Assembly: GCF_019195435.1 (NCBI RefSeq)
Contig: NZ_CP078069.1
Location: 1,550,001-1,614,000 of the forward strand
Source: Comamonas sp. NLF-1-9
GTDB taxonomy: Bacteria; Pseudomonadota; Gammaproteobacteria; Burkholderiales; Burkholderiaceae_C
Reading direction: 5' to 3'
DNA: 64,000 bases
Made by a program: the position numbers and the translations under genes. Of this stretch, positions 15,733 to 28,441 are shown piece after piece; within the stretch, counting starts at the first letter, position 1, and every line of letters begins with the position of its first letter. The notes under the pieces were generated by a model, which was not told where the DNA came from, made no database searches, and worked only from the letters and a program-made list of their open reading frames with translations.

Positions 15733-16860
15733 ATGTTCAGCTTCTTCAGGAAAAAAACCCCGCCAGCGCCCGCCCCTGCCGCGCCCGCAGCGTCCGATGC
15801 GGACAAGGTCCAGAGTCAGGGCAGTGGGCCGCCCCACTCGACTCCGGCTCCGTCGCCGGCTGCAGCCCCTGCCCCAGCCACGCCGGCAGCACCTTCGACA
15901 GCCGCGCCACCCACAGCCACCGCCGACGCCCAAGCCGCCCCGCCGGCCATGGCCGAGGCGCCCCGCCAGAGCTGGATGGCGCGCCTGTCGGCCGGTTTGC
16001 GCAAGACCGGCAGCAGCATCACCACCGTCTTTACCGGCACGCGCATCGACGAGGCCTTGTACGAAGAGCTCGAAGACGCCCTGCTCATGGCCGACACCGG
16101 CGTGAAGGCCACCACCGCGCTGTTGCAGACCCTGAGGCGCAAGGTCAAGGAACGCAAGGCCGCCGACCCGGCCGCCGTCAGGGCGCTGCTGGCCGAGGCG
16201 CTCGCCGAGCTGCTGCAACCGCTGGAAAAACCCCTGGTCATAGGCGCGCACCAGCCCACGGTAATCATGGTTGCGGGCGTCAATGGCGCGGGCAAGACCA
16301 CCTCCATCGGCAAGCTCACGCGGCACCTGGCCGACCACGGCCAGAGCGTGCTGCTGGCTGCGGCCGACACCTTCCGCGCCGCCGCGCGCGAGCAGCTCGG
16401 CGTCTGGGCCACGCGCAACACCGTGGACATCATCAGCCAGCAGGGGGGCGACCCGGCTGCGGTGAGCTTTGACGCAGTGAGCGCCGGCCGCGCCCGCGGC
16501 AAGGACGTGGTGCTGGTAGACACCGCCGGGCGCCTGCCCACGCAACTGCACCTGATGCAAGAGCTCACCAAGATCCGCCGCGTGATCACCAAGGCCGACG
16601 CCAGCGCCCCGCACGAGGTGCTGCTGGTCATCGACGGCAACACCGGCCAGAACGCCCTCGCCCAGGTCAAGGCCTTCGACGAGGCGCTGCAGCTCACCGG
16701 CCTGATCGTCACCAAACTCGACGGCACCGCCAAGGGCGGCGTGCTCGCCGCCATCGCGCAGGAGCGCCCGGTGCCGGTCTATTTCATCGGCGTGGGCGAG
16801 CAGGTGCAAGACTTGCAAACCTTCAAGGCACGGGAATTCGCCGACGCGCTGCTGGGCTGA
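15733..16860 (+). CDS. ftsY: Signal recognition particle receptor FtsY
   Basis: A 375-residue SRP-receptor GTPase that docks ribosome-SRP complexes at the membrane. After a Pro/Ala/Thr-rich linker of about 75 residues (a short version of the acidic A domain) comes the NG domain. G1 is GVNGAGKTTSIGKLT at about residue 182, followed by DTFRAAAREQL, DTAGRLPTQ and TKLDGTAKGG. The protein ends normally (REFADALLG). Start at 15733 is the first ATG and gives MFSFFRKK, a typical basic/hydrophobic N-terminus. Confidence 0.96.
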   Translation: MFSFFRKKTPPAPAPAAPAASDADKVQSQGSGPPHSTPAPSPAAAPAPATPAAPSTAAPPTATADAQAAPPAMAEAPRQSWMARLSAGLRKTGSSITTVFTGTRIDEALYEELEDALLMADTGVKATTALLQTLRRKVKERKAADPAAVRALLAEALAELLQPLEKPLVIGAHQPTVIMVAGVNGAGKTTSIGKLTRHLADHGQSVLLAAADTFRAAAREQLGVWATRNTVDIISQQGGDPAAVSFDAVSAGRARGKDVVLVDTAGRLPTQLHLMQELTKIRRVITKADASAPHEVLLVIDGNTGQNALAQVKAFDEALQLTGLIVTKLDGTAKGGVLAAIAQERPVPVYFIGVGEQVQDLQTFKAREFADALLG

Positions 16861-16881
16861 AGCGGCGCCCTGCAAGGCGCT

Positions 16882-17132
16882 TCACAGGTCTTTGAGCAGG
16901 CGGCGCAACACCTTGCCCGCACCGGTCGCCGGCAACGCATCGATGAAGCGCACGTGGCGCGGCGCAACCGAAAACACCATGCTCTGCTGCGGAAGTCCTT
17001 GGCCTGCGCGGTCGCCTCGGTCTTGAACAGGGCGTTGGCAAAGCTCAGCATCGCGCCCTTGGGCAGCCCGGTAATGCCGCTGGCATGGGTCATCAGCGCC
17101 ACGTCGTCCATGCCGCGCGCCGCGCCGCGCAC
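16882..17132 (-). pseudogene. Remnant of an AMP-binding acyl-CoA synthetase gene
   Basis: The minus strand encodes ALMTHASGITGLPKGAMLSF, matching the ATP/AMP-binding P-loop of long-chain acyl-CoA synthetases. Only about 60 bp later, in a different frame, it encodes VAPRHVRFIDALPATGAGKV then LRRLLKDL and a stop. This matches the C-terminal lysine motif of the same family. About 350 residues that should separate these motifs are missing and the frame is shifted, so this is a decayed gene with a large internal deletion. Nothing recognisable from it remains upstream of 17132. Confidence 0.75.
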
Positions 17133-17153
17133 ACGCCGCTACGCTTGTCAGCG

Positions 17154-17489
17154 CTACTCGCGCCGCTTTGGCTGGCTGCTCGGCAGCACGTGCTCTGACA
17201 TGATTTCGGCGGGTGGTGCCGTAGCGCCACTGTCGGCGCCCTCGTCGTCCCAGGTGCCGCCGGTGCGGCGCGTGTCGCCGCGCGGGTGCAGCAGCGTGGC
17301 GTCATCGAAGTCCAGCGGGCCATCCTGCGGAATGTCGTCCAGCGGGTGCGCGCTCACTTCGTCCATGCCGGCAGAGACGTCCTTCTCGGCGCTCATGGTG
17401 GCGTTGGCTTCGGCGCTGGTCTCGGCGCGCGCGGTGGCTTCGCTCGGCGTGTCGGCGGCTGCAGAGGCGGGGGTGCTCGGGGTTTTCAT
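17154..17489 (-). CDS. Small acidic protein of unknown function
   Basis: A 111-residue predicted protein starting at the ATG at 17489, which has a good AGAGGAAA ribosome site. The first half is Ala/Ser/Thr/Glu-rich and likely disordered. The second half is acidic with GGTWDDEGAD. There is no signal peptide or membrane segment and I recognise no domain. It lies just outside the left boundary of the integrative element and next to the synthetase remnant. Confidence 0.55.
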   Translation of the reverse strand: MKTPSTPASAAADTPSEATARAETSAEANATMSAEKDVSAGMDEVSAHPLDDIPQDGPLDFDDATLLHPRGDTRRTGGTWDDEGADSGATAPPAEIMSEHVLPSSQPKRRE

Positions 17490-17658
17490 GGCTGATTTCC
17501 TCTTGGGTCTTGCTATGCACACGGGGAGCAAGCCACGTGCCGGGCTGGCCTGGTGTTGGGCGCAACGCCAAGTACACAAACCGCAATGAAGGTCTGCGGC
17601 GGCCCTGAGGAAAGATGCGCATCCCCGGCGAGAAGGCCTGCGCAGAATCAGCGAAGGA

Positions 17659-17707
17659 TGGTGGGTCGTGCGCGACTCGAACGCGCGACCAACGGATTAA
17701 AAGTCCG
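17659..17707 (-). repeat. attL: displaced 3' half of tRNA-Lys
   Basis: 49 bases identical to 24917-24965. Read on the minus strand it gives the tRNA-Lys anticodon loop, T arm, acceptor strand and CCA, but the sequence continuing beyond 17707 is not tRNA. The crossover therefore falls within or next to the anticodon stem-loop, the usual target of P4-type integrases. Confidence 0.93.
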
Positions 17708-17736
17708 AAATCATGTATTTTTCTGGATTTTCGTGG

Positions 17737-17842
17737 ACTGTCACCAGAGATGCAACCCATTGATCTATATGGATTCATAATCCAATTAAGTCCGTAGGCG
17801 TACAATTCCATTCATGCCAAAACTGTCACCAGACTGTCACCA
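17737..17842 (+). repeat. Left-end repeats of ACTGTCACCA (putative integrase arm sites)
   Basis: The 10-mer ACTGTCACCA occurs at 17737-17746, 17822-17831 and 17833-17842, between attL and the integrase start. The last two are separated by one G and repeat at the right end in the same arrangement. I infer arm-type binding sites for the recombinase or its accessory factor. Confidence 0.6.
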
Positions 17843-17901
17843 AAAAAAACAAACGGACTAGCTTCGGACTGCTGCATGAAGGTCACCTTCCGGACTGAAA
17901 A

Positions 17902-19212
17902 ATGAGCTCCAAAACCATCGGCCAAAGCATCAACGACCTGGAGCCTGGCCAGTTCCTGAAAGTCGGCAAGGTCGCCCCTGTCGGCACCCTGGAGGCGCGC
18001 AAGCTGGTCAACGGCGTGACCACGTTCTATTGGCGCTTCACCATCAAGAGCAAGACGCACCGGGAGCCCATAGGCATCTACGATTCCGGCGCACCGCCCA
18101 AGAGCGTCAAACCCACCGCCAAGGGCTACAGCATCCAAGCGGCGATGCGCGCGGCTGAGGCGCTTTCTGAGCAGCACCATGCACGCCGGGACGATGGCGG
18201 CATCCTGGCCATCAAGGCCGAGGCGCAACAGGCCAGAACCGCAGCAGCGCAAGCCCAGGCCGAGGCACAGCAGTTCACCCTGGAGCACCTGCTGGGCGAC
18301 TACGCCGACCACCTGGAATTCCAAGGCCGCCGGTCCCATGCCGACGTGCGCAGCATCACCAAGTTGCACGTCTTGGAGCCATGGCCCCAGGTGGCCAGCC
18401 TGCCCGCCAACCAAGTGACCGGCGAGCAGATAGCGGACATGATGCGGCGCGTAGTGGATCTGGGCAAAGACCGCACGGCAAACAAGCTGCGCAGCTATGT
18501 CCGGGCGGCCTACCAGACCGCCAAGGCCGCGCGCTCCAAGGCCAGCATCCCGCTACGCTTCAAGGGCTACCGCGTCACCCAAAACCCGGCGGCGGACACC
18601 GAGCCCGACGAATCGGCCAATCGTGCCGACAAGAACCCCCTGAGCCTGGAGGAACTGCGCGCCTACTGGCTGGCCATCAAGACCATGGCGGGGCTCAAAG
18701 GAGCCGTGCTGCGCCTGCACCTGCTGACTGGTGGCCAGCGTATCGAGCAGTTGGTCAACCTGCGCACCGCTGATATTGACGCTGGCGCTATCACCCTCTA
18801 CGACGGCAAGGGCAGGCCGGGCAAGCCCCCCAGGCCGCACACCATCCCGTTGATCCCCGAGGCTGCCTTGGCGCTCCTGGCGTGCCAGCCCGAGGGCATC
18901 TATGCAATCAGCACCGACGGCGGCAATTCGCACCTGGCAGCGACTACCCTGAGCAATTGGGCAGTAGAGACCGCAGCAGGCATTGACGGTTTCCAGACCA
19001 AGCGCATTCGCTCAGGCGTGGAAACCCTGCTGGCCAGTGGCCGCGTGAGCTCAGACATTCGAGGCCGGTTGCAGTCCCACGGCATCGCCGGGGTGCAGGC
19101 GCGGCACTATGACGGGCACGACTACATGCAGGAAAAGCGCGATGCCCTGGCGCTGCTGCTGCGTCTGCTGCAAGAGCAAAGCGCCAATGTGGTGCATATC
19201 AAGACGGCATGA
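17902..19212 (+). CDS. int: Tyrosine recombinase (phage/P4-type integrase)
   Basis: A 436-residue site-specific recombinase that would integrate and excise the element at tRNA-Lys. The C-terminal catalytic domain shows Arg280 in GGQRIEQLVNL, HTIPLIPEA, the second Arg/His region KRIRSGVETLLA and LQSHGIAGVQARHYDGHDYM. Tyr408 in HDYMQEKRDAL is the likely nucleophile. An N-terminal DUF4102-like region and an Ala/Gln-rich coiled segment (about residues 95-130) precede a SAM-like core-binding domain. It reads away from the attL end, the position expected for a tRNA-targeting island integrase. Confidence 0.92.
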   Translation: MSSKTIGQSINDLEPGQFLKVGKVAPVGTLEARKLVNGVTTFYWRFTIKSKTHREPIGIYDSGAPPKSVKPTAKGYSIQAAMRAAEALSEQHHARRDDGGILAIKAEAQQARTAAAQAQAEAQQFTLEHLLGDYADHLEFQGRRSHADVRSITKLHVLEPWPQVASLPANQVTGEQIADMMRRVVDLGKDRTANKLRSYVRAAYQTAKAARSKASIPLRFKGYRVTQNPAADTEPDESANRADKNPLSLEELRAYWLAIKTMAGLKGAVLRLHLLTGGQRIEQLVNLRTADIDAGAITLYDGKGRPGKPPRPHTIPLIPEAALALLACQPEGIYAISTDGGNSHLAATTLSNWAVETAAGIDGFQTKRIRSGVETLLASGRVSSDIRGRLQSHGIAGVQARHYDGHDYMQEKRDALALLLRLLQEQSANVVHIKTA

Positions 19213-19290
19213 ATTTTTGAAAATGCCCCAAGGGGTACGCTACAAAACCTACAAAACCCCCTGGCGATGATCCCAGGCCATCGCAATGCA

Positions 19291-19306
19291 GTATCTTTTA
19301 GAATAC
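19291..19306. promoter_or_regulatory. Possible toxin-antitoxin operator (imperfect dyad)
   Basis: GTATCTTTTAGAATAC is an imperfect palindrome (outer GTAT/ATAC) ending five bases before the toxin start codon. Its TAGAAT could serve as a -10 element. Toxin-antitoxin pairs are commonly autoregulated through such dyads, but no protein contact can be shown here. Confidence 0.4.
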
Positions 19307-19310
19307 CATT

Positions 19311-19634
19311 ATGGATGTTCGCATCTACACCGACAGTCAAGGCCATGCACCGTTTGAGAGCTGGCTGGATGCGCTGCCCGACCGAATGGCGAGGGCCAAA
19401 ATCCGCGCCCGCCTGGCACGGGTAGAAGCCGGGAACATGGGCGATTGCAAGCCCCTGCGCGATGGCGTGCAAGAGCTGCGCATAGACCATGGGCCGGGCT
19501 ATCGCGTGTATCTGAGCAGGCAAGGTGCCGTGCTGGTGCTGCTGCTGTGCGGTAGCGACAAGGGCAGTCAAAGCCGCGAAATTGCGCGCGCCATTGACTA
19601 TCTGAGCGATTGGAAAGAAAGAGGCAGGCCATGA
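19311..19634 (+). CDS. RelE/ParE-family toxin (phage Gp49/HigB-like)
   Basis: A 107-residue protein with the compact RelE/HigB fold signature: FESWLDALPDRMARAKIRAR, the central GDCKPLRDGVQELRIDHGPG, YRVYLSRQG and a hydrophobic strand VLVLLLCGSDKG. HigB-like toxins cleave mRNA on ribosomes. The gene overlaps the antitoxin gene through ATGA at 19631-19634. It belongs to the toxin-first type of addiction module often carried by mobile elements, here right after the integrase. Confidence 0.85.
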   Translation: MDVRIYTDSQGHAPFESWLDALPDRMARAKIRARLARVEAGNMGDCKPLRDGVQELRIDHGPGYRVYLSRQGAVLVLLLCGSDKGSQSREIARAIDYLSDWKERGRP

Positions 19635-19924
19635 ATGCACCACCCGACAAGAGCTTTTCTGCATCCCTGGAGCGGGCGCTGACAGACCCGGCTGAGGCAG
19701 CAGCCTACATCGATGCAGCCATGGAGCTTGATGATCCAGCCGCCCTGCTGGTGGCGCTGCGCCACGTCGCCAAGGCCCACGGCATGGCCGAGGTGGCCCG
19801 GCGCGCGGACGTGGGCGACAAGACGCTGTTCAAGGCCCTGAGCGACAAGGGCAACCCCACATTGGAGACGGTCAACAAGGTATTGCATGCCGTGGGGTTG
19901 CGCCTGAGTGTTGCGCCAGTGTGA
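19631..19924 (+). CDS. HigA-like antitoxin with HTH domain
   Basis: A 97-residue putative addiction-module antidote. I chose ATG 19631, which overlaps the toxin stop codon and follows an AGAGG ribosome site, rather than 19610. The C-terminal half is an HTH: ALRHVAKAHGMAEVARRADV, then KTLFKALSDKGNPTLETVNK, then VLHAVGLRLSV. The N-terminal part would wrap the toxin. A rho-independent terminator follows 45 bp downstream. Confidence 0.85.
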   Translation: MNAPPDKSFSASLERALTDPAEAAAYIDAAMELDDPAALLVALRHVAKAHGMAEVARRADVGDKTLFKALSDKGNPTLETVNKVLHAVGLRLSVAPV

Positions 19925-19969
19925 GGCCGTTTCCCCCTGGCCTGATCCTCTCCCCCGGTCAGAACGACG

Positions 19970-19992
19970 CCCGCCTAGATGGCGGGTTTTTT
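19970..19992 (+). terminator. Rho-independent terminator after the toxin-antitoxin pair
   Basis: Stem CCCGCC/GGCGGG with a 5-nt TAGAT loop is followed by six T residues. It closes the integrase-toxin-antitoxin unit and separates it from the next promoter. Confidence 0.85.
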
Positions 19993-20007
19993 GTGCGTAA
20001 ACGCTAT

Positions 20008-20076
20008 ATGCAGTGATACTTATCAGTCCAAGACACTGCATGTAGTGTTGCAGGGTATCGAATTGGTTTATAGAAT
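20008..20076 (+). promoter_or_regulatory. Promoter with overlapping dyad operator upstream of the AlpA-like operon
   Basis: TTGCAG (20048-20053) and TAGAAT (20071-20076) with a 17-bp spacer resemble a sigma-70 promoter. Just upstream, ATGCAGTG (20008-20015) and CACTGCAT (20034-20041) form an inverted repeat. The second arm lies in a further near-palindrome, ACACTGCATGTAGTGT (20033-20048), touching the -35 box. This layout suits repression of the operon that starts at 20151. Confidence 0.5.
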
Positions 20077-20150
20077 GCCGACGCCATCCGTGGATGAATG
20101 GATGGAAACACAGTACCCACAACGCCCGCAATGGGCAGAAAGGGAACCAC

Positions 20151-20693
20151 ATGCGAGCTGAAAAAATGATCTTGCCGCTGGGCGATGACCGCAGTTTCTA
20201 CGAAAAGGTTATGCGGGCCTTGTATGAAACCGGCTACATCAAAGAGTACCGCGCAATCACCGGACGCGACCATGCGCCCAGCATCACCAACGACATGCCC
20301 GAAGCTGGCGGCGGCGGCGCAAGCGCTGGCGTGACCGATGGCCCTGACGTGGCTGCTTCGGATGATGACGATGGCGGCGATGGCGACGGGGAGGACGACT
20401 GTCGGCGCTTACGTTCCAAACACAAACACCCCTCACCCGGCCCTGCGCCACACAAACGCGGCAACGCCCGCACCGGCACGCACAACGCTGCCACCAAGCC
20501 CCCTCAATCTGTTGATCCTCTGCTGCTCAAACTGCCAGCAGTACTGAGCACGTTCCCTGTTTCCCGTTCCGCCTGGTTCCAAGGCGTGAAGGATGGCCGT
20601 TACCCCAAGCCTGTGCGCTTAGGCGCGCGTGCCGTAGCCTGGAAATCGAGCGATATCCGCGCCCTCGTTGATTCTTTGGCCGCTGGCCAGTGA
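20151..20693 (+). CDS. AlpA-like DNA-binding protein with long N-terminal extension
   Basis: A 180-residue protein. The C-terminal segment (about residues 125-180) reads LPAVLSTFPVSRSAWFQGVK, then DGRYPKPVRLGARAVAWK and SSDIRALVDSLAAG. That is the prophage regulator AlpA/excisionase winged-helix pattern. The N-terminal part is unrelated, with a Gly/Asp-rich low-complexity stretch (residues 52-85). I chose ATG 20151 because AAGGGA lies just upstream; 20094 is an in-frame alternative. Such proteins act as activators of integrase or excision in P4-like elements. Confidence 0.7.
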   Translation: MRAEKMILPLGDDRSFYEKVMRALYETGYIKEYRAITGRDHAPSITNDMPEAGGGGASAGVTDGPDVAASDDDDGGDGDGEDDCRRLRSKHKHPSPGPAPHKRGNARTGTHNAATKPPQSVDPLLLKLPAVLSTFPVSRSAWFQGVKDGRYPKPVRLGARAVAWKSSDIRALVDSLAAGQ

Positions 20694-20703
20694 GGGGAAC
20701 GCA

Positions 20704-20952
20704 ATGCAGAAATTCAACCCACACCGGGTAGGCGCAGCCCTGCCCGCTCAGAACCCTCTCGACCTGCTGCACCTGGCGCAAGCCGCTATCCAATATGCCC
20801 AGGCCGTGGCCGATACCGCGCACTGCAAGGACGTGCTGAAGGCCGCCTGGCCTGGCGCACTGCCGACATTCGGCAATTGCTGGGGGTGGCGCAATGATGG
20901 TCGCCGCGTTCTATCTGCTGCTGTGCTGGCGCACCCGGAGGCCGCGAAATGA
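20704..20952 (+). CDS. Small protein of unknown function in the element
   Basis: An 82-residue reading frame with a GAGGGGAA ribosome site, 10 bp after the AlpA-like gene. Its stop overlaps the next start by ATGA, which supports it being translated. It contains the helical LDLLHLAQAAIQYAQAVADT and no motif I recognise. Confidence 0.5.
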   Translation: MQKFNPHRVGAALPAQNPLDLLHLAQAAIQYAQAVADTAHCKDVLKAAWPGALPTFGNCWGWRNDGRRVLSAAVLAHPEAAK

Positions 20953-21326
20953 AAAAGCGCCCGACCCGTGAAACCACAAAGCCGAGCGCTATTCCTGAAC
21001 CGAACAGCGCCATTGTTACCGACACCACACCCAAGGGCAATTGCCTGAGATTGTCACCCCGTCAGGCGCGCGTACTTTATGCGCTGGAGCTGCGCGCAAA
21101 CCAACTGATGCCCTGGCTATGGCGCGAGGAAGTTGACCGCGTGGCGAAGGCATCGAACGGGCCTGACGTAGTGTTCAGATTGCGCGGCAAGCTGGGCGAT
21201 GACGCCATCGACACCCAAATCGTGGAGGCCGTGGACAGCGATGGCAAGCCCTCACGACCGGGGCGTTATCGCTTGACCGGCATTGGGCTCGCCAGACTGG
21301 CGAAATCCGATTGGAGGCCCGCATGA
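20949..21326 (+). CDS. Unknown protein, possible winged-helix
   Basis: A 125-residue protein coupled by ATGA overlaps to genes on both sides. The segment LSPRQARVLYALELRANQLM PWLWREEVD continues to VVFRLRGKLGDDAIDTQIVE and PGRYRLTGIGLARLA. This resembles a small winged-helix DNA-binding domain found in element-encoded proteins. The function is not recognised; position before the primase suggests a replication or control role. Confidence 0.55.
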   Translation: MKKRPTRETTKPSAIPEPNSAIVTDTTPKGNCLRLSPRQARVLYALELRANQLMPWLWREEVDRVAKASNGPDVVFRLRGKLGDDAIDTQIVEAVDSDGKPSRPGRYRLTGIGLARLAKSDWRPA

Positions 21327-21604
21327 TTGGCGCCATCGACCACGCCCTGCAAACCGGCGTTGCCGCCGCCTGGCGCAACCTCTACGCTGATGAGCGCCCC
21401 GCCCGCTGCATGGCTTGCCTGCGCATGCGCCCTGTCGCACCCGGCTGGTGCGTTGGCACCTACAAGCCCTATCACCCGGCGCACCCGCCCATCGTCTATC
21501 TGCTGTGCCCCAAGTGCGCGCAAAGCGAGGGCGCCATCAGGCGAGCCAAGCAAACGATTGAAACCCGTTCACGGGCGATTGCCGAGGGGGAGCGCATCAA
21601 ATGA
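21323..21604 (+). CDS. Small zinc-ribbon-like protein
   Basis: A 93-residue protein with two cysteine pairs, CMAC (near residue 33) and CPKC (near residue 68), plus another Cys between, suggesting a zinc ribbon. The C-terminus is a charged helix (GAIRRAKQTIETRSRAIAEG). It overlaps the previous gene and the primase gene by ATGA, so it is probably made together with the primase. The function is unknown. Confidence 0.55.
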   Translation: MIGAIDHALQTGVAAAWRNLYADERPARCMACLRMRPVAPGWCVGTYKPYHPAHPPIVYLLCPKCAQSEGAIRRAKQTIETRSRAIAEGERIK

Positions 21605-23721
21605 GTATTGAAGACGAAGCCTTGCGCCTCGCCGCCGCTGGCTGGCCGGTGTTTCCACTGATGGCAAATGGCAAGAGGCCAGCGACCGCTCACGGCCTGA
21701 AGGATGCCACGACCGATGAGGCAACCATCAGGCAATGGTGGCAGCGCATGCCTGCCGCGAACGTTGGCATGGTCGTGCCGCCCGGATTCGTCGCGATTGA
21801 CGTGGACATGAAGAACGGCATCGATGGCTTTGCAGCACTGGCTGCGTTGCAAGAAGACCATGGGCCACTGCCTGCCACGCGCACCGTGCAGACACCCAGC
21901 GGGGGGCAGCACCTGGTGTTCACCGCGCCCGAGCACCTGCGCATCAAAAACCGCGTCGCCATCCGCCCCGGCTTGGACGTGCGCGCTTTTGGCGGCTACC
22001 TTGTGGCACCACCGAGCGCCATTGATGGCGGGGTCTATCAAGTGCTCAACGACTGCGGCCCGGCCCCTGCGCCGCAGTGGCTTTTGGACGTGCTGACCGA
22101 GGAGAAAACCAAAGCCCCGGCAAACCCTTCAGAAGCCCCGCTACAGCGTCAAAGCATCGCGCATGATGCCTACACCCAGCGAGCCATAGAACGCGCCACA
22201 AGCGCCGTTCTGAGCGCCGGGGAGGGTGCGCGCAATGACTGCCTGAACGCCAGCGCCTACGGCCTTGCGCGGCTGGCTGGGGCCGGGCGCTTGGATTGGC
22301 ACCAAGTAAGTGCAGCTCTGGAACGCGCTGCGCTGGGTGCTGGCCTGCAACCGGCGGAAATTCGCGCCACGTTAGAGAGTGCCAGCGAGGGCAGGAGCCA
22401 TCCGAGCTATGAGGGACTGCCGCGCGGCGATGCGCCTGTCTGGCCTACCTGGACCGGACAAGACGATGATGAAGCGCTCGCGCCCGAGGAGCACCCGCTG
22501 GCGTGCATCATCAACCCGGGTGAGCAGCTACAGCCGCCGCGCTGGTTGTTGCCCGGCTTCATGGCCGAAGGGCTGACGCTGATTGCAGGAGGGCACGGCG
22601 TAGGCAAGTCAACCGCCTTGCTGCCGCTGGCCTGCGCTGTCGCTGGTATCCACGAACACGGCTGCGAACTGGCACCGAAGCACTGGCGTGAAGTGGTCTA
22701 CATCACCGAAGACGTGCATCAGGCCGCGCGGATTTTGCACGGGCTGGCCTGGCACCTGCAAACCACCGTGCAGACGATAGGCGAGCGCCTGCACCTGGTT
22801 GACGCGCGCCGCCTGCCGCCCGCGTACCTGGTGCAAGTGGGGCAAACCTACCGCGACCGTTACAGCCGCACCGTGCAAGACGTGGAGCTGCCGCCGCTCG
22901 TGGTTCTCGACACCCAAGCCGCAACGATTGCGCTGGAAAGCGAGAACGACAACGCCGAAGCATCCGCCGCCGTTGCCGCGTTGAAACAACACTTTGCCGG
23001 GCTGCCCATCTGGCTGGTGGCACACCTGGCAAAGCAGAACTTGAACCGAAGCGACGCGCAACACCTGACAAGCCGGGGCGCTAGCGCATGGGAAGCCGAC
23101 GCGAACTGCACCGCGTTTCTGGTGAAAGAAGGCGATGGCATCAGCGCCACGCGCTGGCTGGTGCTGGGCAAGCGCCGGTTTGAGCCACGCTGGCCTGAGC
23201 TACAGCTTGAAAGCCATTTCCTCGAAACCACCGGCTATGACGTATGGGGTGATCCTGAGCCGCTCGTGCTGCGATGGGCCATCGCCCGCCCAAGCGAAGG
23301 CACGCGCCAAGAGCAGGCGCAGAAGGAAAAGGAAGAACGCGCTCAGGCCGAGGAGGCAAAACTGAGGCAGGAAATCCGCGACGCGGTGCAGATTGCCTGG
23401 CAAGAGGGCAATCCGCTGAACCGCGCCGGGGTGAAGGCCAGGGTGCGGCACAAGACCGCCGAGGTTGTTGACTGCATCGAGCGACTGCTGTCCGAGCGCT
23501 GGCTTGTGGAGATTGAAGTTCCAACGCGGGAGCGCACCAACAACAGGCGAGCAAGATTCATCGTCAATCTGAGCACGGAAGAGCACGAAGCCGTGCTTGG
23601 TGGCAAGCCTGTCCCGGAGGAAAAGAGTGCCATCCCCGCCGCGTGGAAAAAGCCAATTCCGTCCGTTCCCGAAAATTCTGAGAACGCTACAAAAAATGAA
23701 GCAACTTCCGAGGCTGCCTGA
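21601..23721 (+). CDS. Bifunctional primase-polymerase / AAA (RepA-like) ATPase
   Basis: A 706-residue replication protein. The N-terminal domain (residues about 1-165) is a PriPol domain: AAAGWPVFPLMANGKRP, catalytic acidic AIDVDMKNG, TPSGGQHLVF and GYLVAPPS. A helical linker follows, then a RepA/AAA_25 ATPase with Walker A GGHGVGKST at about residue 331, VVYITED and LPPLVVLDTQAATIALES. The C-terminal region has a Glu/Lys coiled segment and a likely winged helix. It probably primes and unwinds the element's DNA. Low-copy repeats begin within its last codons and continue downstream. Confidence 0.85.
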   Translation: MSIEDEALRLAAAGWPVFPLMANGKRPATAHGLKDATTDEATIRQWWQRMPAANVGMVVPPGFVAIDVDMKNGIDGFAALAALQEDHGPLPATRTVQTPSGGQHLVFTAPEHLRIKNRVAIRPGLDVRAFGGYLVAPPSAIDGGVYQVLNDCGPAPAPQWLLDVLTEEKTKAPANPSEAPLQRQSIAHDAYTQRAIERATSAVLSAGEGARNDCLNASAYGLARLAGAGRLDWHQVSAALERAALGAGLQPAEIRATLESASEGRSHPSYEGLPRGDAPVWPTWTGQDDDEALAPEEHPLACIINPGEQLQPPRWLLPGFMAEGLTLIAGGHGVGKSTALLPLACAVAGIHEHGCELAPKHWREVVYITEDVHQAARILHGLAWHLQTTVQTIGERLHLVDARRLPPAYLVQVGQTYRDRYSRTVQDVELPPLVVLDTQAATIALESENDNAEASAAVAALKQHFAGLPIWLVAHLAKQNLNRSDAQHLTSRGASAWEADANCTAFLVKEGDGISATRWLVLGKRRFEPRWPELQLESHFLETTGYDVWGDPEPLVLRWAIARPSEGTRQEQAQKEKEERAQAEEAKLRQEIRDAVQIAWQEGNPLNRAGVKARVRHKTAEVVDCIERLLSERWLVEIEVPTRERTNNRRARFIVNLSTEEHEAVLGGKPVPEEKSAIPAAWKKPIPSVPENSENATKNEATSEAA

Positions 23722-23876
23722 CTGCGATTCCGTTCGTTCCCATTCCGTTCGTTCCCCTATAGGAAAAAAGACGGGAACGGACGGAAATGACTAAGGCCCA
23801 TTTCCTGTCCATCCGTTCATTCCCATGGTCAAGGGAATGGACGGGAATGAACGGGAACGGACGGGAACGGACGGGC
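23657..23876. repeat. Iteron-like repeat cluster, candidate replication origin
   Basis: At least nine copies of TTCCGTCCGTTCCC or its reverse complement occur in 220 bp. Forward copies are at 23657-23670, 23728-23741, 23743-23756 and 23811-23824. Reverse copies are at 23773-23786 and in a 10-bp-period tandem array, GGGAAYGRAC repeated four times, at 23833-23872. An AT-rich stretch (CTATAGGAAAAAAG) lies between the inverted blocks. It starts in the 3' end of the primase gene and fills the following intergenic space. I infer an origin bound by the element's replication protein. Confidence 0.6.
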
Positions 23877-23933
23877 CGCGCAAGGGTCGAGCTCCCTGCT
23901 TGGCAAGACCTGATTGGAAAGAGGAAGTCAACG

Positions 23934-24566
23934 ATGGCAACGAAGAAGATCACCAAGACCGCCAATCCGGGCAAGCCTGACCCGAACGCCTTCAAGGTCG
24001 AGGAAAGCAAGGACACGATGTCTCAGACACTTGCAAAGCTGGTGACCGGCGGGGCGCTGTCTGCGACAACCCTGAAGCAATTCTCGGGCGGTGGCGAGAA
24101 CCTGGACGTGTCTGATCTGGTGGCCCAGATGAAGAAGGCCGGGGACGAGGTAGTGACAGGCGACATGAGGCGCGTCGAGCGAATGCTGTCAAACCAGATG
24201 CTCACACTGGACTTGCTCTTCAACACCCTCGCGCAAAAATCAGGGCGGCAGGACACATTCAAGGGCATCGAGGTATTGCTGCGCCTGGCGCTGAAGGCAC
24301 AAGCACAAGCGCGAGCGACGGCGGAAACCCTATCCATTGTCAAGAACCCCATGCCCTACATCCGGCAAGCGAACATCGCGCATGGGCCGCAGCAGGTCAA
24401 CAACGGCGCATCCATCGCGGGCGCGGGCAATTCCCAAAGCGAACCAGACAAACTATTGGAGCAGCAGCATGGCAACGTCTTGGACACCCGAGCGCAGACA
24501 GCGGCAAGCCGAATTGATCCGGCAATGGAGACCGTGGGAGCGCAGCACCGGCCCGAAAAGCCCTGA
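23934..24566 (+). CDS. Unknown phage-type protein
   Basis: A 210-residue basic, soluble protein; start ATG 23934 follows AGAGGAAG. The central and C-terminal parts, LLRLALKAQAQARATAETLS, then VKNPMPYIRQANIAHGPQQV and NNGA, match a type of small protein common in prophages and integrative elements of proteobacteria. The function has not been assigned to my knowledge. A Ser/Gly/Gln-rich tail follows. It overlaps the next small gene's start in another frame. Confidence 0.65.
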   Translation: MATKKITKTANPGKPDPNAFKVEESKDTMSQTLAKLVTGGALSATTLKQFSGGGENLDVSDLVAQMKKAGDEVVTGDMRRVERMLSNQMLTLDLLFNTLAQKSGRQDTFKGIEVLLRLALKAQAQARATAETLSIVKNPMPYIRQANIAHGPQQVNNGASIAGAGNSQSEPDKLLEQQHGNVLDTRAQTAASRIDPAMETVGAQHRPEKP

Positions 24567-24693
24567 AGGCAAGGCGACGGTATCGCGCAACGCCTACAAG
24601 GGCGGGCGCCGTGCCATGCTGCGGGCGCTGGCGCGAGAGGTGCGGGCGGAATTGGCAGAAATGCAGCGGCTGCGCGACGTGGTGCGGGGGTGA
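24469..24693 (+). CDS. Small basic protein with RPWERSTGPKSPEGK motif
   Basis: A 74-residue protein starting at ATG 24469 (GGAG upstream). The motif RPWERSTGPKSPEGKATVSR with NAYKGG following is a recurrent signature of small proteins in phages and integrative elements. The remainder is a basic amphipathic helix (MLRALAREVRAELAEMQRLR). The same frame stays open past the stop, from 24694 to about 24823, encoding LVLVSFTEMNAKLGRMQLRL. The gene may therefore have been longer and been cut by a nonsense change, or two adjacent pieces may exist. Confidence 0.6.
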   Translation: MATSWTPERRQRQAELIRQWRPWERSTGPKSPEGKATVSRNAYKGGRRAMLRALAREVRAELAEMQRLRDVVRG

Positions 24694-24847
24694 GTTTGCT
24701 CCACGCATCGCGCGCGCGAGGGCTTGCAGGCGCGCCATGATGCGCTGGTGCTGGTGTCGTTCACCGAAATGAATGCCAAGCTGGGGCGCATGCAGTTGCG
24801 GTTGGACAACATGCGGCGGGGCTGAGACAGAGTTCATCAAGCCAAAA

Positions 24848-24868
24848 ACTGTCACCAGACTGTCACCA
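24848..24868 (+). repeat. Right-end repeats of ACTGTCACCA (putative arm sites)
   Basis: ACTGTCACCA occurs at 24848-24857 and 24859-24868, separated by one G, the same pair as at the left end (17822-17842) in the same orientation and with matching flanks. I infer recombinase arm sites near attR. Confidence 0.6.
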
Positions 24869-24873
24869 AGAAA

Positions 24874-24904
24874 AAAGCGCACTATTGTTTACATAGCGCG
24901 CTTT
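24874..24904 (-). terminator. Rho-independent terminator downstream of tRNA-Lys
   Basis: AAAGCGC (24874-24880) pairs with GCGCTTT (24898-24904); on the minus strand the stem is followed by a T-rich run. It lies just 3' of the reconstituted tRNA-Lys and is element-supplied, so the integrated element both restores the tRNA end and provides its terminator. Confidence 0.65.
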
Positions 24905-24916
24905 CTTTGTCTGCCT

Positions 24917-24992
24917 TGGTGGGTCGTGCGCGACTCGAACGCGCGACCAACGGATTAAAAGTCCGCTGCTCTACCGACTGAGCTAACGACCC
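24917..24992 (-). tRNA. tRNA-Lys (anticodon UUU)
   Basis: A 76-nt cloverleaf on the minus strand: 5' GGGTCGTTAGCTCAGTCGGT, anticodon loop CTTTTAA with TTT at 24957-24959, T loop TTCGAGT, acceptor strand CGACCC and encoded CCA. Bases 24917-24965 duplicate 17659-17707. It lies 19 bp downstream of tcdA in the same direction. Confidence 0.97.
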
Positions 24993-25011
24993 GGGCGAAG
25001 AAAACCGTCGA

Positions 25012-25806
25012 TTATAGAAAGCTTTTGCGCTGCTCCGGCCGGGCCAAGGTGCGCAGTACCCAGCCCGCGGCGGTCATGCCGAAGGTGGCGGTCACGGCCA
25101 CGCTGGAGCCATAGCCGTGGCAGTTCAGGCTGCCGTCGCTTTGCTGGACGGCGCAGGAGGGGTCGGGCGCGGCCACGGCTTCGCGGCTGAAGACGCAGGG
25201 GATGCCTATGGGCGTGTCGCCGCGCGCGCCGCCGTGGTGGCGGCGCAGGGTGTAGCGCAGCTTGGCCAGCAGCGGGTCGTGGCTCACTTGGGCCAGGTCG
25301 GCCACTTCCACGCGCTCGGCCTGCTGCTTGCCGCCGGCGGCGCCCACGCTGATGAAGACGCCGCTGCCTTGCAGCGCCCAGGCGGCCAGCGCGGCCTTGG
25401 CGCTGAGCTGGTCGCAGGCGTCGATGACGGCATCGGCGGGTTCGGGCAGCAGCCGGGGCCAGTTCTGCGGACCGGCAAAGTCGTCCACGCAGTGCACCGT
25501 GCAAGCGGGGTGGATCAGCGCGATGCGCTCGGCCATGGCGCGCACCTTGGCCTGGCCCAGCGTGGTGTCCAGCGCGTGGGCCTGGCGGTTGATGTTGGAT
25601 TCGACCACGTGGTCCATGTCGATCAGGCTCAGGCGGCCGACGCCGCTGCGTGCCAGTGCCTCGGCAGCCCAGGAGCCGACGCCGCCGATGCCGACGACGG
25701 CCACGTGGCTCGCGCGGATGCGCTCGGCCCCGGCCACGCCGTACAGGCGCTCGAGCGCGCCAAAGCGCCGCTGCACGTCCACGCCTTGCGGGGCCGCTGC
25801 GCTCAC
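25012..25806 (-). CDS. tcdA: tRNA threonylcarbamoyladenosine dehydratase (TcdA/CsdL)
   Basis: A 264-residue E1-like enzyme that cyclises t6A at tRNA position 37 to ct6A using ATP. Signatures are RFGALERLYGVAGAERIRAS, nucleotide-binding GIGGVGSWAAEALARSGVG, DMDHVVESNINRQAHAL and VIDACDQLSAKAALAAW. The start is GTG at 25806, overlapping the cpoB stop by GTGA. This is clearly the TcdA branch rather than MoeB/ThiF because it lacks the CxxC zinc pairs and carries the long C-terminal tail. Confidence 0.92.
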   Translation of the reverse strand: MSAAAPQGVDVQRRFGALERLYGVAGAERIRASHVAVVGIGGVGSWAAEALARSGVGRLSLIDMDHVVESNINRQAHALDTTLGQAKVRAMAERIALIHPACTVHCVDDFAGPQNWPRLLPEPADAVIDACDQLSAKAALAAWALQGSGVFISVGAAGGKQQAERVEVADLAQVSHDPLLAKLRYTLRRHHGGARGDTPIGIPCVFSREAVAAPDPSCAVQQSDGSLNCHGYGSSVAVTATFGMTAAGWVLRTLARPEQRKSFL

Positions 25807-26558
25807 TTCAGGCGGGCCAGGCGTTCCTTGGCGGCGCTGGCGGCCTCGGACTGGGGGTAGACGCGAATCAGATCTTCCAGGGTCTTGCGCGCGGCCTTGG
25901 TGTCCTTGAGCTCGACCTGGCAGTTGGCAATCGACAGAGCCGCCTCGGGCGCGCGCGCGTGCTCGGGGGCGGCCGCCAGCAGCGCCTTGAAGTTGTCGAT
26001 CGCGCTCTTGTAGTCGCGCGTGGCGTACTGGGCGTTGCCCAGCCAGAAGCGCGCCGAAGGCAGGTAGCCGGACTTCGGGTACTTGCCCATGAAGCCCTGG
26101 AAGGCGCTGGCGGCCTCGGCGAACTTGCCGGTGCGAAAGACGGCAAGCGCCGCTTCGTAGTCGGCCTTCTCGGCCGGTTCGGCCTTGAATTCGCGCCCGT
26201 CCACCTGCACGGTTTCGGGCTCGAACTTGCGCAGGCGCTCGTCCACGCTGGTGGCTACGTCCTTCTGGCGCTGCTGCAGCTCGCTCAGGTCGCGGCGCAG
26301 TTTTTCGTTCTGGCCGCGCAGCTCGGCGGTTTCGGCGCGCAGCGTCTCGATCTGCGACTGCAGGTCAAGCACGCTGCGGCGCAACTGCGCCGCATCGCCG
26401 CCCGAGTTCTGCTGCATCTGGTCGATGCGCTGGCGCATCTCCAAAATGGCCCGGCGCGCCTCGTCGTCCTCGAACAGCGCCGCGTGGCTCACGCTGGAGC
26501 CCAGCGCCAGCAGTGCGCATGCGACGGCCAGCCACCAGCGGGAAGTCTTCGCTTGCAT
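25803..26558 (-). CDS. cpoB: Cell division coordinator CpoB (YbgF), Tol-Pal associated
   Basis: A 251-residue periplasmic protein. A signal peptide (WWLAVACALLALGSSVSHA) is followed by a coiled-coil trimerisation region (about residues 30-100, rich in heptad Leu/Ile and Gln/Arg). C-terminal TPR repeats follow (YEAALAVFRTGKFAEAASAF and LGNAQYATRDYKSAIDNF). It coordinates peptidoglycan synthesis with outer-membrane constriction. The gene order tolB-pal-cpoB fits. Confidence 0.93.
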   Translation of the reverse strand: MQAKTSRWWLAVACALLALGSSVSHAALFEDDEARRAILEMRQRIDQMQQNSGGDAAQLRRSVLDLQSQIETLRAETAELRGQNEKLRRDLSELQQRQKDVATSVDERLRKFEPETVQVDGREFKAEPAEKADYEAALAVFRTGKFAEAASAFQGFMGKYPKSGYLPSARFWLGNAQYATRDYKSAIDNFKALLAAAPEHARAPEAALSIANCQVELKDTKAARKTLEDLIRVYPQSEAASAAKERLARLK

Positions 26559-26571
26559 GCGCTGCGCCCTT

Positions 26572-27102
26572 TCAGTGGTAGCTCAGCTCGACGCGGCGGT
26601 TTTGCGCGTAGGCATCTTCGGAGTTGCCCGGCACGGCCGGCTTTTCCTTGCCGAAGCTCACCGCTTCCATCTGCGCCTCGGGCACGCCGAGCAGCCCCAG
26701 GGCGCGGCGCACGGCTTCAGCGCGCTTCTGGCCCAAGGCGAGGTTGTATTCGCGCCCGCCGCGCTCGTCGGTATTTCCTTCGAGGGTGACGCGGCGCGCG
26801 TTGTTGCTCTTGAGGTAGCGCGCGTGGGCGTCGAGCACCGACTGGTATTCGGGCTTGACGGAGTAGCTGTCAAAGTCGAAATAGATCACGCGGGCCACGC
26901 CCACCGGGCCCTGGGCCGTGCCCTGGGTGGCGTTCAGGTCCACCGGCGCAACCGCGCTCTGGCTGCCGCCGTTGTTGCTGGTGGAGGCCGCGCCCTGGTC
27001 GGTGACCGGCACGTCGTTGAGCTTGACGCCGGAACTGCAGCCAACCACCAGGGCGGTGGCGATCAGGGCCAGGGACATGCGACTGAACTTGAGGTGTTTC
27101 AC
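26572..27102 (-). CDS. pal: Peptidoglycan-associated lipoprotein Pal
   Basis: A 176-residue outer-membrane lipoprotein. I chose the GTG at 27102, which gives a basic n-region (VKHLKFSRMSL) before the hydrophobic LALIATALVVGC lipobox and the usual Pal length. ATG 27078 would leave a very short signal. The C-terminal OmpA-like domain shows GNTDERGGREYNLALGQKRA and AVRRALG, with conserved Asp and Arg for diaminopimelate binding. It is between tolB and cpoB. Confidence 0.94.
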   Translation of the reverse strand: MKHLKFSRMSLALIATALVVGCSSGVKLNDVPVTDQGAASTSNNGGSQSAVAPVDLNATQGTAQGPVGVARVIYFDFDSYSVKPEYQSVLDAHARYLKSNNARRVTLEGNTDERGGREYNLALGQKRAEAVRRALGLLGVPEAQMEAVSFGKEKPAVPGNSEDAYAQNRRVELSYH

Positions 27103-27148
27103 TTTGGACTCTCGTGGATGAAATGAAAAGGACAGGAAAAGAAAAGAC

Positions 27149-28441
27149 TCACTTCTGGAACGGGCCCCAGGCGGGTTCGCGGATGTCACCGCCCTGCCCG
27201 GCCAGGCGCGCCTTGATCTTGCCGTCCAGGGTGGTGGTCATGAGCATTTCCTTGCCCTGGTTGCGCGTGGCGTAGACGATGAGCTTGCCGTTGGGCGCAA
27301 AGCTCGGACGCTCGTCGGCGCTGGTGTCGGTGATGGAGGTGCTGGTGTGCGATTTCAGGTCCATCACCTGCAGCTTGAAGGCGCCGCCGCTGCGCGTGAT
27401 GTAGGCCAGCGTCTGCCCGTCGGGACTGACCGAGGGCGAGATGTTGTAGTTGCCCTGGAAGGTGACGCGCTCGGCCGCGCCGCCGCTGGCGGCCACGCGG
27501 TAGATTTGCGGCGAACCGCCGCGGTCGCTCACGAAGTAGATGCGTCCGTCGCTGGCGTAGGTGGGTTCGGTGTCTATGCCGGCGCTTTGCATCAGGCGCG
27601 TGGCTTCGCCGCCGTTGGCGCTGATGGTGTAGAGCTGCGAGCCGCCGTCGCGGCTGAGCGTCACCGCCAGCGTGCGGCCATCGGGCGACCAGGCGGGAGC
27701 GCTGTTGGAGCCGCGGAAGTTGGCGATCAGGCGCCGACGGCCGCTGGCGATGTCGTGCACGTAGACCACGGGCTTGCGCGACTCGAAGGACACGTAGGCC
27801 AGCTGCGTGCCCGAGGGCGACCAGGCGGGCGAGATGATGGGCTCGGGGCTGGAGAGCGCGGACTGTGCGTTCTCGCCATCGGCGTCGGCCACCCACAGGC
27901 TGTAGCGGCTGCCGACCTTGGTGATGTAGGCGATGCGCGTGGAGAAGACGCCGCGCTCGCCGGTGAGTTTTTCGTAGATGTAGTCGGAGATGCGGTGCGC
28001 CGCCAGGCGCAGGTCGGCGCGCGTGACGGCATAGCTCTGGCCGCTCAGGTCTTCGCCGCGCACCACGTCCCAGAGACGAAAACGGGTATCGAAGCGCCCG
28101 TCGGCCAGCGCCGTGATGCTGCCCACGCTGAGCGCGTCGGCCTTGCGCTCGCGCCACAGCGACAAGTCGGGGCGCGAAGCCTCGTCGAGCGTGGCGCCCG
28201 AGGCGTCGATGCCGACGAAGCGGCCGCTGCGCTCCAGGTCGGCCAGCACGATGCGCGAGATCTTCTGCGGCGCCGCCTCTTCGCCGCGCAACGGCGCGAT
28301 CGCGATCGGCAGTTGCGTGAGGCCGACACCGGTGATTTCCACGCGAAACTGCGCCAGCGCGGGGAGGCTCCCCAGCGCAAGGCCGGCGGCGATCAGGTCG
28401 CGGCGCGACGGCCGCGGCGACAGGGAGTGGTCAAGCATCAT
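27149..28441 (-). CDS. tolB: Tol-Pal system periplasmic beta-propeller TolB
   Basis: A 430-residue periplasmic protein starting at ATG 28441. The N-terminus has a twin-arginine-like signal, PSRRDLIAAGLALGSLPALA, followed by FRVEITGVGLTQLPIAIAPL. Six beta-propeller blades are marked by repeated SPDG/SPSG/SPAWSPSG motifs (SPDGRTLAVTLSRDGGSQLY, SDGRIYFVSDRGGSPQIY). It binds Pal and TolA. tolQRA are not in the window; msbA is divergent upstream. Confidence 0.94.
   Translation of the reverse strand: MMLDHSLSPRPSRRDLIAAGLALGSLPALAQFRVEITGVGLTQLPIAIAPLRGEEAAPQKISRIVLADLERSGRFVGIDASGATLDEASRPDLSLWRERKADALSVGSITALADGRFDTRFRLWDVVRGEDLSGQSYAVTRADLRLAAHRISDYIYEKLTGERGVFSTRIAYITKVGSRYSLWVADADGENAQSALSSPEPIISPAWSPSGTQLAYVSFESRKPVVYVHDIASGRRRLIANFRGSNSAPAWSPDGRTLAVTLSRDGGSQLYTISANGGEATRLMQSAGIDTEPTYASDGRIYFVSDRGGSPQIYRVAASGGAAERVTFQGNYNISPSVSPDGQTLAYITRSGGAFKLQVMDLKSHTSTSITDTSADERPSFAPNGKLIVYATRNQGKEMLMTTTLDGKIKARLAGQGGDIREPAWGPFQK

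Follow-up and report, generated by a model that had tools for sequence, protein, structure and literature searches.

A putative phage-satellite-like integrative element in tRNA-Lys of Comamonas sp. NLF-1-9 ends in a conserved, unnamed gene pair

Small islands that lie in tRNA genes and lack transfer genes are common, and their movement is mostly unexplained. Among the described phage satellites, phage-inducible chromosomal islands (PICIs) are defined by a gene that redirects packaging, such as terS, or by a cos or pac site, capsid-forming PICIs (cfPICIs) by capsid, protease, portal and terminase genes of their own, and P4-like satellites by psu, sid or delta. Here, we describe an integrative element of 7,258 bp (about 7.3 kb) in Comamonas sp. 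NLF-1-9, which lies in a tRNA-Lys gene within contig NZ_CP078069.1, positions 1,550,001 to 1,614,000 (the window, i.e. the whole 64-kb stretch analysed, whose numbering we use), and which we believe is probably a helper-dependent, phage-satellite-like element. Among systems with a similar gene set, the phage-inducible chromosomal minimalist islands (PICMIs) of the Vibrionaceae have been demonstrated to transfer in a phage-dependent manner and are modelled on an integrase with PF00589, PF00239 or PF07508, AlpA, a DUF3987 or DUF5906 primase and fis (PMC10803314). In addition, the tmRNA islands I23, I44 and I55 are moved by a jumbo phage, and one of them was shown to be transduced as a satellite (PMC12595487).

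The element is bounded by an exact 49-bp direct repeat, detected by repeat comparison within the window, which equals the 3' half of tRNA-Lys(TTT), the only tRNA gene that ARAGORN finds there; a preliminary description of this DNA had read the repeats in the same way. The complete 3.03-Mb genome holds two copies of the repeat when up to three mismatches are allowed, and both flank the element. Besides the tRNA, an Rfam scan returned an antisense hit on a plastid model, which stayed below the gathering score and is taken as an artefact. In the closest congener (G008), the counterparts of positions 17128-17707 and 24917-28000 (93.8-93.9% identity) adjoin each other, have exactly one 49-bp copy in common and lack the element, and this site is therefore empty. 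There is thus one core copy where the site is empty and two where it is occupied, as expected of an integrative element, and the proposal to this effect in the preliminary description is strongly supported and withstands the refuting observations which that description had named. At the level of aligned genomes, the empty-site comparison demonstrates site-specific integration at tRNA-Lys that leaves the tRNA whole. The ends of the element are as follows.

17659..17707, plus strand: left 49-bp copy (attL core), a residual tRNA-Lys 3' half; exact repeat, single copy at the G008 empty site
17737..17842, plus strand: three ACTGTCACCA motifs (17737, 17822, 17833), candidate integrase arm sites; copy count against expectation
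24848..24868, plus strand: two ACTGTCACCA motifs (24848, 24859), candidate arm sites of the right end; copy count against expectation
24917..24965, plus strand: right 49-bp copy (attR core), within the intact tRNA; exact repeat, ARAGORN, G008 comparison
24917..24992, minus strand: tRNA-Lys(TTT), the integration target; ARAGORN, Rfam tRNA

Between these ends, ten open reading frames (ORFs) follow each other on the plus strand in the order integrase, toxin, antitoxin, AlpA, three small genes, PrimPol-AAA, p9 and sm4. All ten were scanned against Pfam, PHROGs and NCBIfam.

17902..19212, plus strand: integrase of tyrosine-recombinase type, 436 aa, of a distinct clade; phrog_1, E 4.5e-23, conserved alignment
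19311..19634, plus strand: RelE/HigB-type toxin; TIGR02683 above the NCBIfam cut-off
19631..19924, plus strand: antidote protein; TIGR02684 above the NCBIfam cut-off
20151..20693, plus strand: AlpA-type regulator, excisionase candidate; PF05930, E 1.1e-10, 41.6 bits against a cut-off of 21
20704..20952, plus strand: small protein sm1; ORF with BLAST homologs in L009, L012, L014 and L167
20949..21326, plus strand: small protein sm2; ORF with BLAST homologs in L029, L049 and L060
21323..21604, plus strand: small protein sm3; ORF with no family match in Pfam, PHROGs or NCBIfam
21601..23721, plus strand: PrimPol-AAA replication protein, 706 aa; PF09250, E 9.2e-47, and PF13481, E 3.4e-24
23659..23874, both strands: nine GGRAAYGRACGG repeats, candidate origin; exact repeat count
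23934..24566, plus strand: p9, 210 aa, unnamed conserved protein; 2024 homologs, no consistent family match, dN/dS 0.11-0.35
24469..24693, plus strand: sm4, 74 aa, unnamed conserved protein; reading frame different from that of p9, whose end it overlaps; within 700 bp of p9 in 77 of 80 genome loci

The Prim-Pol (PF09250), AAA_25 (PF13481) and AlpA (PF05930) matches all exceed the Pfam gathering scores, and together with the two NCBIfam matches they bear out what had been said of a PriPol/AAA ATPase, an AlpA-like regulator and a toxin-antitoxin pair. Likewise, the ten ORFs gave no match to capsid, portal, relaxase or conjugation families, and the sole packaging-type match, that of sm4 to a terminase small subunit (E 0.067), is at chance level, in agreement with the earlier statement that capsid, packaging and conjugation genes are missing. 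PADLOC matched none of the ten proteins to a known defence gene.

Traces in congeners suggest that the site has been used more than once. A decayed relative occupies this site in G005 (85.5% identity in the integrase part, 77.6% in the p9 part and 91% at the right end), G002 retains the integrase tail there (90% identity), G004 retains 45 bases of the right end, and in G003 the right end is found at a different tRNA-Lys, CTT; these remnants and relatives therefore mark tRNA-Lys as a repeated target. The right flank is present in all eight other genomes of the genus examined. The left flank was not found in the stretches examined from G001, G003 (main copy), G004, G006 and G007, which makes these five uninformative on the empty site beyond the lack of a second 49-bp copy there. 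A near-identical congener with an empty site makes integration and transfer directly testable.

Compared with PICMIs, the element has a similar size of about 6-7 kb and likewise combines an integrase, AlpA, a primase, few other genes and direct repeats with a lack of capsid and packaging genes; moreover, its AlpA belongs to PF05930, one of the two families (PF05930 or PF12728) that the PICMI model accepts (PMC10803314). By contrast, its integrase has none of PF00589, PF00239 and PF07508, its primase has PF09250 and PF13481 only and not DUF3987 or DUF5906, and it lies inside tRNA-Lys whereas PICMIs lie beside fis (the flanking genes were not scanned for fis). Many of the islands with p9-sm4 described below do have a DUF3987 primase (for example L012 and L011, and also L167, although without p9). 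By this test of integrase, AlpA, primase and site, the element would work like a PICMI but is not one. With the tmRNA islands it shares a tyrosine integrase, AlpA, direct repeats and the absence of transfer genes, but those islands are larger, sit at tmRNA and share other genes (YqaJ, RadC, inovirus Gp2-like), and the part of the source at hand does not mention p9-sm4 (PMC12595487). Searches of the open-access literature turned up no account of islands at tRNA-Lys with such a gene set, and p9-sm4 has no name to search by, so that we do not claim absence from print.

P4-like satellites resemble the element in being tRNA-borne and in having an integrase, an AlpA-type regulator and a primase-helicase, but the element is much smaller and its ten ORFs have no PHROG match to psu, sid or delta. 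Its integrase had been called P4-type, a label that the Pfam results do not support: the only match at E up to 0.1 is a sub-threshold one to Phage_int_M (PF22022, E 0.0011), with neither PF00589 nor an arm-binding domain, whereas the P4-like integrase of the related island L008 scores all three. The protein is instead identified as an integrase by PHROGs (phrog_1), and its profile weakly matches chains of lambda Int (E 0.004). At a profile threshold of E 1e-60, 28 of 399 family genomes match it, own genome counted. We examined 11 regions of this clade (L166-L176, two of which, L172 and L176, are cut by contig ends), and six have at their far end a tRNA with a 45-49-bp repeat (four tRNA-Lys, two tRNA-Met); four other family genomes thus have the clade at tRNA-Lys, flanked by 48-49-bp repeats. 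For example, L167 belongs to another genus and shows 94.6% identity over 2,271 bases that comprise attachment site, integrase and toxin-antitoxin genes, beyond which a Toprim/DUF3987 protein replaces PrimPol and p9 was not found. The ACTGTCACCA motif occurs in five perfect copies in the window, all at the element ends, where 0.01 would be expected, and may represent integrase arm sites. Sets of three left and two right copies recur in L167, of three and one in L168, and the left three in L166 and L089, while the exact motif is absent from L169 and L171, which share the integrase clade and the target.

Seven viral contigs also encode this integrase clade. Probes from L088 detected capsid, protease and portal genes behind the integrase in five of them (HK97-type capsid), four of which have terminase as well, and did not find capsid, protease or portal genes behind the integrase of L090 and L093. 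PHROGs assign a major head protein, maturation protease, portal and terminase large subunit to both L088 and L089, and L088 in addition resembles the element in AlpA (36% over 151 aa) and in one half of the PrimPol protein (54% over 348 aa) and carries Prim-Pol plus AAA_25. Going by the definition above, L088 and L089 appear to have the gene layout of capsid-forming satellites. The element's likeness to cfPICIs (PMC11389934) thus lies in cousins with its own integrase clade and a capsid, protease, portal and terminase block, in one case with AlpA and PrimPol-AAA too; the difference is that its ten ORFs include no capsid block and that p9-sm4 stands behind the primase where L088 has capsid genes. 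The element would work like cfPICIs, yet it is not one.

The p9-sm4 pair goes beyond the preliminary description, as do the motifs at the ends and the repeats clustered at the primase gene. At E 1e-3, p9 has 2024 homologs, itself counted, and it is under purifying selection, with a dN/dS of 0.11-0.35 among the 33 pairs listed (pairs with dS < 1.2). Neither protein could be assigned to a known family: each PHROG matches at most one, and each Pfam family at most three, of 53 p9 relatives, and among 45 sm4 relatives there were at most three matches per PHROG and one per Pfam family, all at chance-level E, the terminase small subunit profile being matched by one of the 45. The p9 profile found no PDB chain at E up to 1, and the NCBIfam scan of the pair covered the window's own p9 (in a longer frame, 23787-24566) and sm4. 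We also reject p9 as a core gene, since only 29 of 399 family genomes, own counted, have it.

When one genome per species was scanned, p9 turned up in 101 stretches, of which 80 were kept as genome loci. In 77 of the 80, sm4 lies within 700 bp behind p9, and it usually overlaps the p9 end in a different frame; no match was obtained in L044 and L072 (L072 lies at a contig end), and in L043 sm4 is further away. The ORF lists of GC-rich loci contain false frames, and the counts therefore rest on profile or BLAST matches. Of the kept loci, 58 extend upstream by 6.5 kb or more; among these, a same-strand integrase is found within 8.2 kb in 44, AlpA in 37, a primase in 37 and integrase and primase together in 29, by profiles built from the same set of loci; a few loci have none of the three. 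The main integrase cluster has 55 of 58 members on the strand of p9. A tRNA directly precedes the integrase in 17 of 52 p9 loci with integrase, and nine of these 17 have a repeat of the tRNA end behind p9 that exceeds shuffled controls; three more (L030, L047 and L060) are arranged like the window, with the tRNA at the p9 side and a 36-48-base repeat next to the integrase. In many Pseudomonadota, p9-sm4 marks the far end of small islands, which often carry integrase, AlpA and primase genes as well.

The replication genes of these islands vary, with DUF3987 and Toprim in L011 and L012, PrimPol, D5_N and DUF5906 in L026, and PriCT_2 and AAA_25 in L030. Two islands of one Acidovorax temperans genome, L012 and L013, have integrases that are 67.6% alike and rep-p9-sm4 blocks that are 95.7% identical, which shows recent module exchange. 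The element's integrase clade and p9 were seen close together only here and, decayed, in G005, and the genome loci closest in p9 (L007-L018) carry other integrases; the element is therefore a mosaic of two widespread modules and not one tight lineage. The suspicion that the family is little described is supported, and in terms of p9 the family proved wider than guessed; the exact integrase-p9 combination was seen only in this element and its decayed relative.

Profile-led scans of IMG/VR yielded 20 contigs with p9 and 24 with sm4, 35 distinct by contig name. DNA-ejection (internal virion) genes, presumably akin to those of P22, directly precede p9-sm4 in ten of the 35 (L202, L204-L207, L209-L213) and in two of the 80 genome loci (L073, L086), both from Stenotrophomonas maltophilia; the PHROG matches were obtained for L211 only and spread to the other loci by tblastn. 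A P4-type integrase and AlpA are likewise present in the D457 island and in the record of L211 (G443). The phrog_2 terminase is absent from three viral records (G443-G445, that of L211 included; other terminase families and other capsid genes were not searched), and in D457 it is present but only far from the island. In L236, a tape-measure gene stands beside p9-sm4. Islands with p9-sm4 and their own ejection proteins would be unusual satellites.

The nine exact GGRAAYGRACGG copies, at the primase gene end and behind it, may form the origin of the element. Own copies aside, a single stray match (L081) was found among 192 related loci, and the motif is therefore private to this element; repeats before p9 are not a general origin, as only six of 81 segments (window included) exceed 50 shuffles. 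The PrimPol-AAA protein has any match in only one of 99 relatives besides the own genome, at 35-37% identity, in line with the expectation that the interior genes are not core genes. A single-sequence scan gave no match in viral contigs, yet L088 has the half-length relative. Among relatives of this protein, primase front domains and AAA back domains are swapped: the AAA half occurs with other front domains in close relatives (PF16793 in P0012, PF13362 in P0015, PF08707 in P0018) and the PrimPol half with a different AAA half in P0040 and P0048.

We therefore favor, as probable, a helper-dependent, phage-satellite-like integrative element. The empty site of G008, the decayed relatives in G005 and G002, the integrase clade at tRNA-Lys in four other genomes and the frequent integrase, AlpA and primase genes of the p9 loci count for this, as does, by analogy, an integrase-AlpA-primase set without transfer genes, which is the gene set of PICMIs. 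What points most strongly to phage is the existence of capsid-encoding cousins and of ejection genes within p9-sm4 islands, and these lend the satellite-like part of the preliminary description indirect support. The tyrosine recombinase joined the 49-bp core to the tRNA-Lys 3' half, keeping the tRNA whole, as the comparison with G008 shows. We propose that AlpA probably triggers excision and the toxin-antitoxin pair probably stabilizes the element, both judged by gene family. The excised circle would be copied by the PrimPol-AAA protein from the cluster at 23659-23874, and p9-sm4 probably serves replication or delivery. Because the element has no recognized exit machinery, it would most likely be carried in helper-phage particles. 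We thus infer excision, replication and helper transfer, and p9-sm4 would be the end module that a wide class of such elements has conserved.

Several points weigh against this. Excision, replication and packaging have left no direct sign that we recognize, and no packaging or capsid-remodelling gene was recognized in the ten ORFs. No helper was found, and no long stretch of DNA is common to the element and the remainder of its own genome, the best match being 157 bases at 71% over the toxin gene, and we dropped DNA shared with a resident helper on this ground. Neither p9 nor sm4 matched any of 50,697 phage records in a single-sequence search, which would miss distant forms. The strongest counterpoint is that p9-sm4 is found on five plasmids, two from Polaromonas (L006, L193), one of them typed mobilizable with a MOBV relaxase, and three cyanobacterial ones recognized by profile (L194, L195, L196; p9 E 6e-11 to 5e-17, sm4 E 2.5e-24 to 1.9e-25 in a small test set); in Anabaena pANA03 the pair stands directly behind a DUF3987 gene. 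The pair therefore need not concern phages, and its presence on plasmids fits a replication role at least as well.

These plasmids, together with the plasmid-type functions of a toxin-antitoxin pair and a replication protein, speak for a plasmid-like integrative element without a dedicated exit route, which would excise, replicate and spread passively by transformation, generalized transduction or lysis. Natural competence can move satellites in another system (PMC13376191). We consider this explanation unlikely, in view of the capsid-encoding cousins, which share integrase, AlpA and the PrimPol half, and of the ejection genes in p9-sm4 islands. Mobilization through an oriT alone by a helper conjugative system strikes us as quite improbable: many elements mobilize with just an oriT, as stated in a review (PMC11389934), and one p9-sm4 plasmid has the MOBV relaxase, but Pfam finds no relaxase family, the mark of an integrative mobilizable element, in the ten ORFs and the modules of relatives point to phage. 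Decay from a larger capsid-encoding island or prophage, for which the same left part with capsid genes in L088 and L089 and the remnants in congeners could be cited, is very improbable, given ten open ORFs, identical 49-bp repeats, complete end motifs and repeat cluster, and an integrase-AlpA-primase-p9-sm4 layout that recurs elsewhere.

Extending the phage-satellite-like reading, we tentatively raise the possibility that p9-sm4, an unnamed and usually overlapping pair, defines a large class of helper-dependent replicons that spans phyla and comprises tRNA islands, small plasmids and ejection-protein islands, and acts as a virion-delivery or packaging module where the capsid-encoding cousins have their capsid block. 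If the pair acts in delivery, this would be a new satellite mechanism; if it acts in replication, it would be an accessory factor common to plasmids and islands. In either case it is a marker that finds such islands without integrase or primase likeness and that reaches many Pseudomonadota, cyanobacterial plasmids and a subset with DNA-ejection genes.

Finally, some neighboring features deserve mention. In L025 and other Pseudomonas loci, the large genes that follow p9-sm4 in several cases, which we take to be type I restriction-modification subunits, would be island cargo. Adjoining the left repeat of the element, a short frame (16779-17132) with what we take to be a motif of an AMP-binding enzyme looks like a gene remnant, because the G008 alignment breaks there. 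Elsewhere in the own genome (G000:C1), an HK97-type major head protein, a phrog_2373 helicase and a weak AlpA match lie close together at about 1717000-1729000 (L187, L188), a candidate second satellite, and a prophage with phrog_2 terminase and phrog_113 portal, presumably Mu-like by its motifs, lies at about 2650000-2689000 (L189, L191) and is a possible helper.

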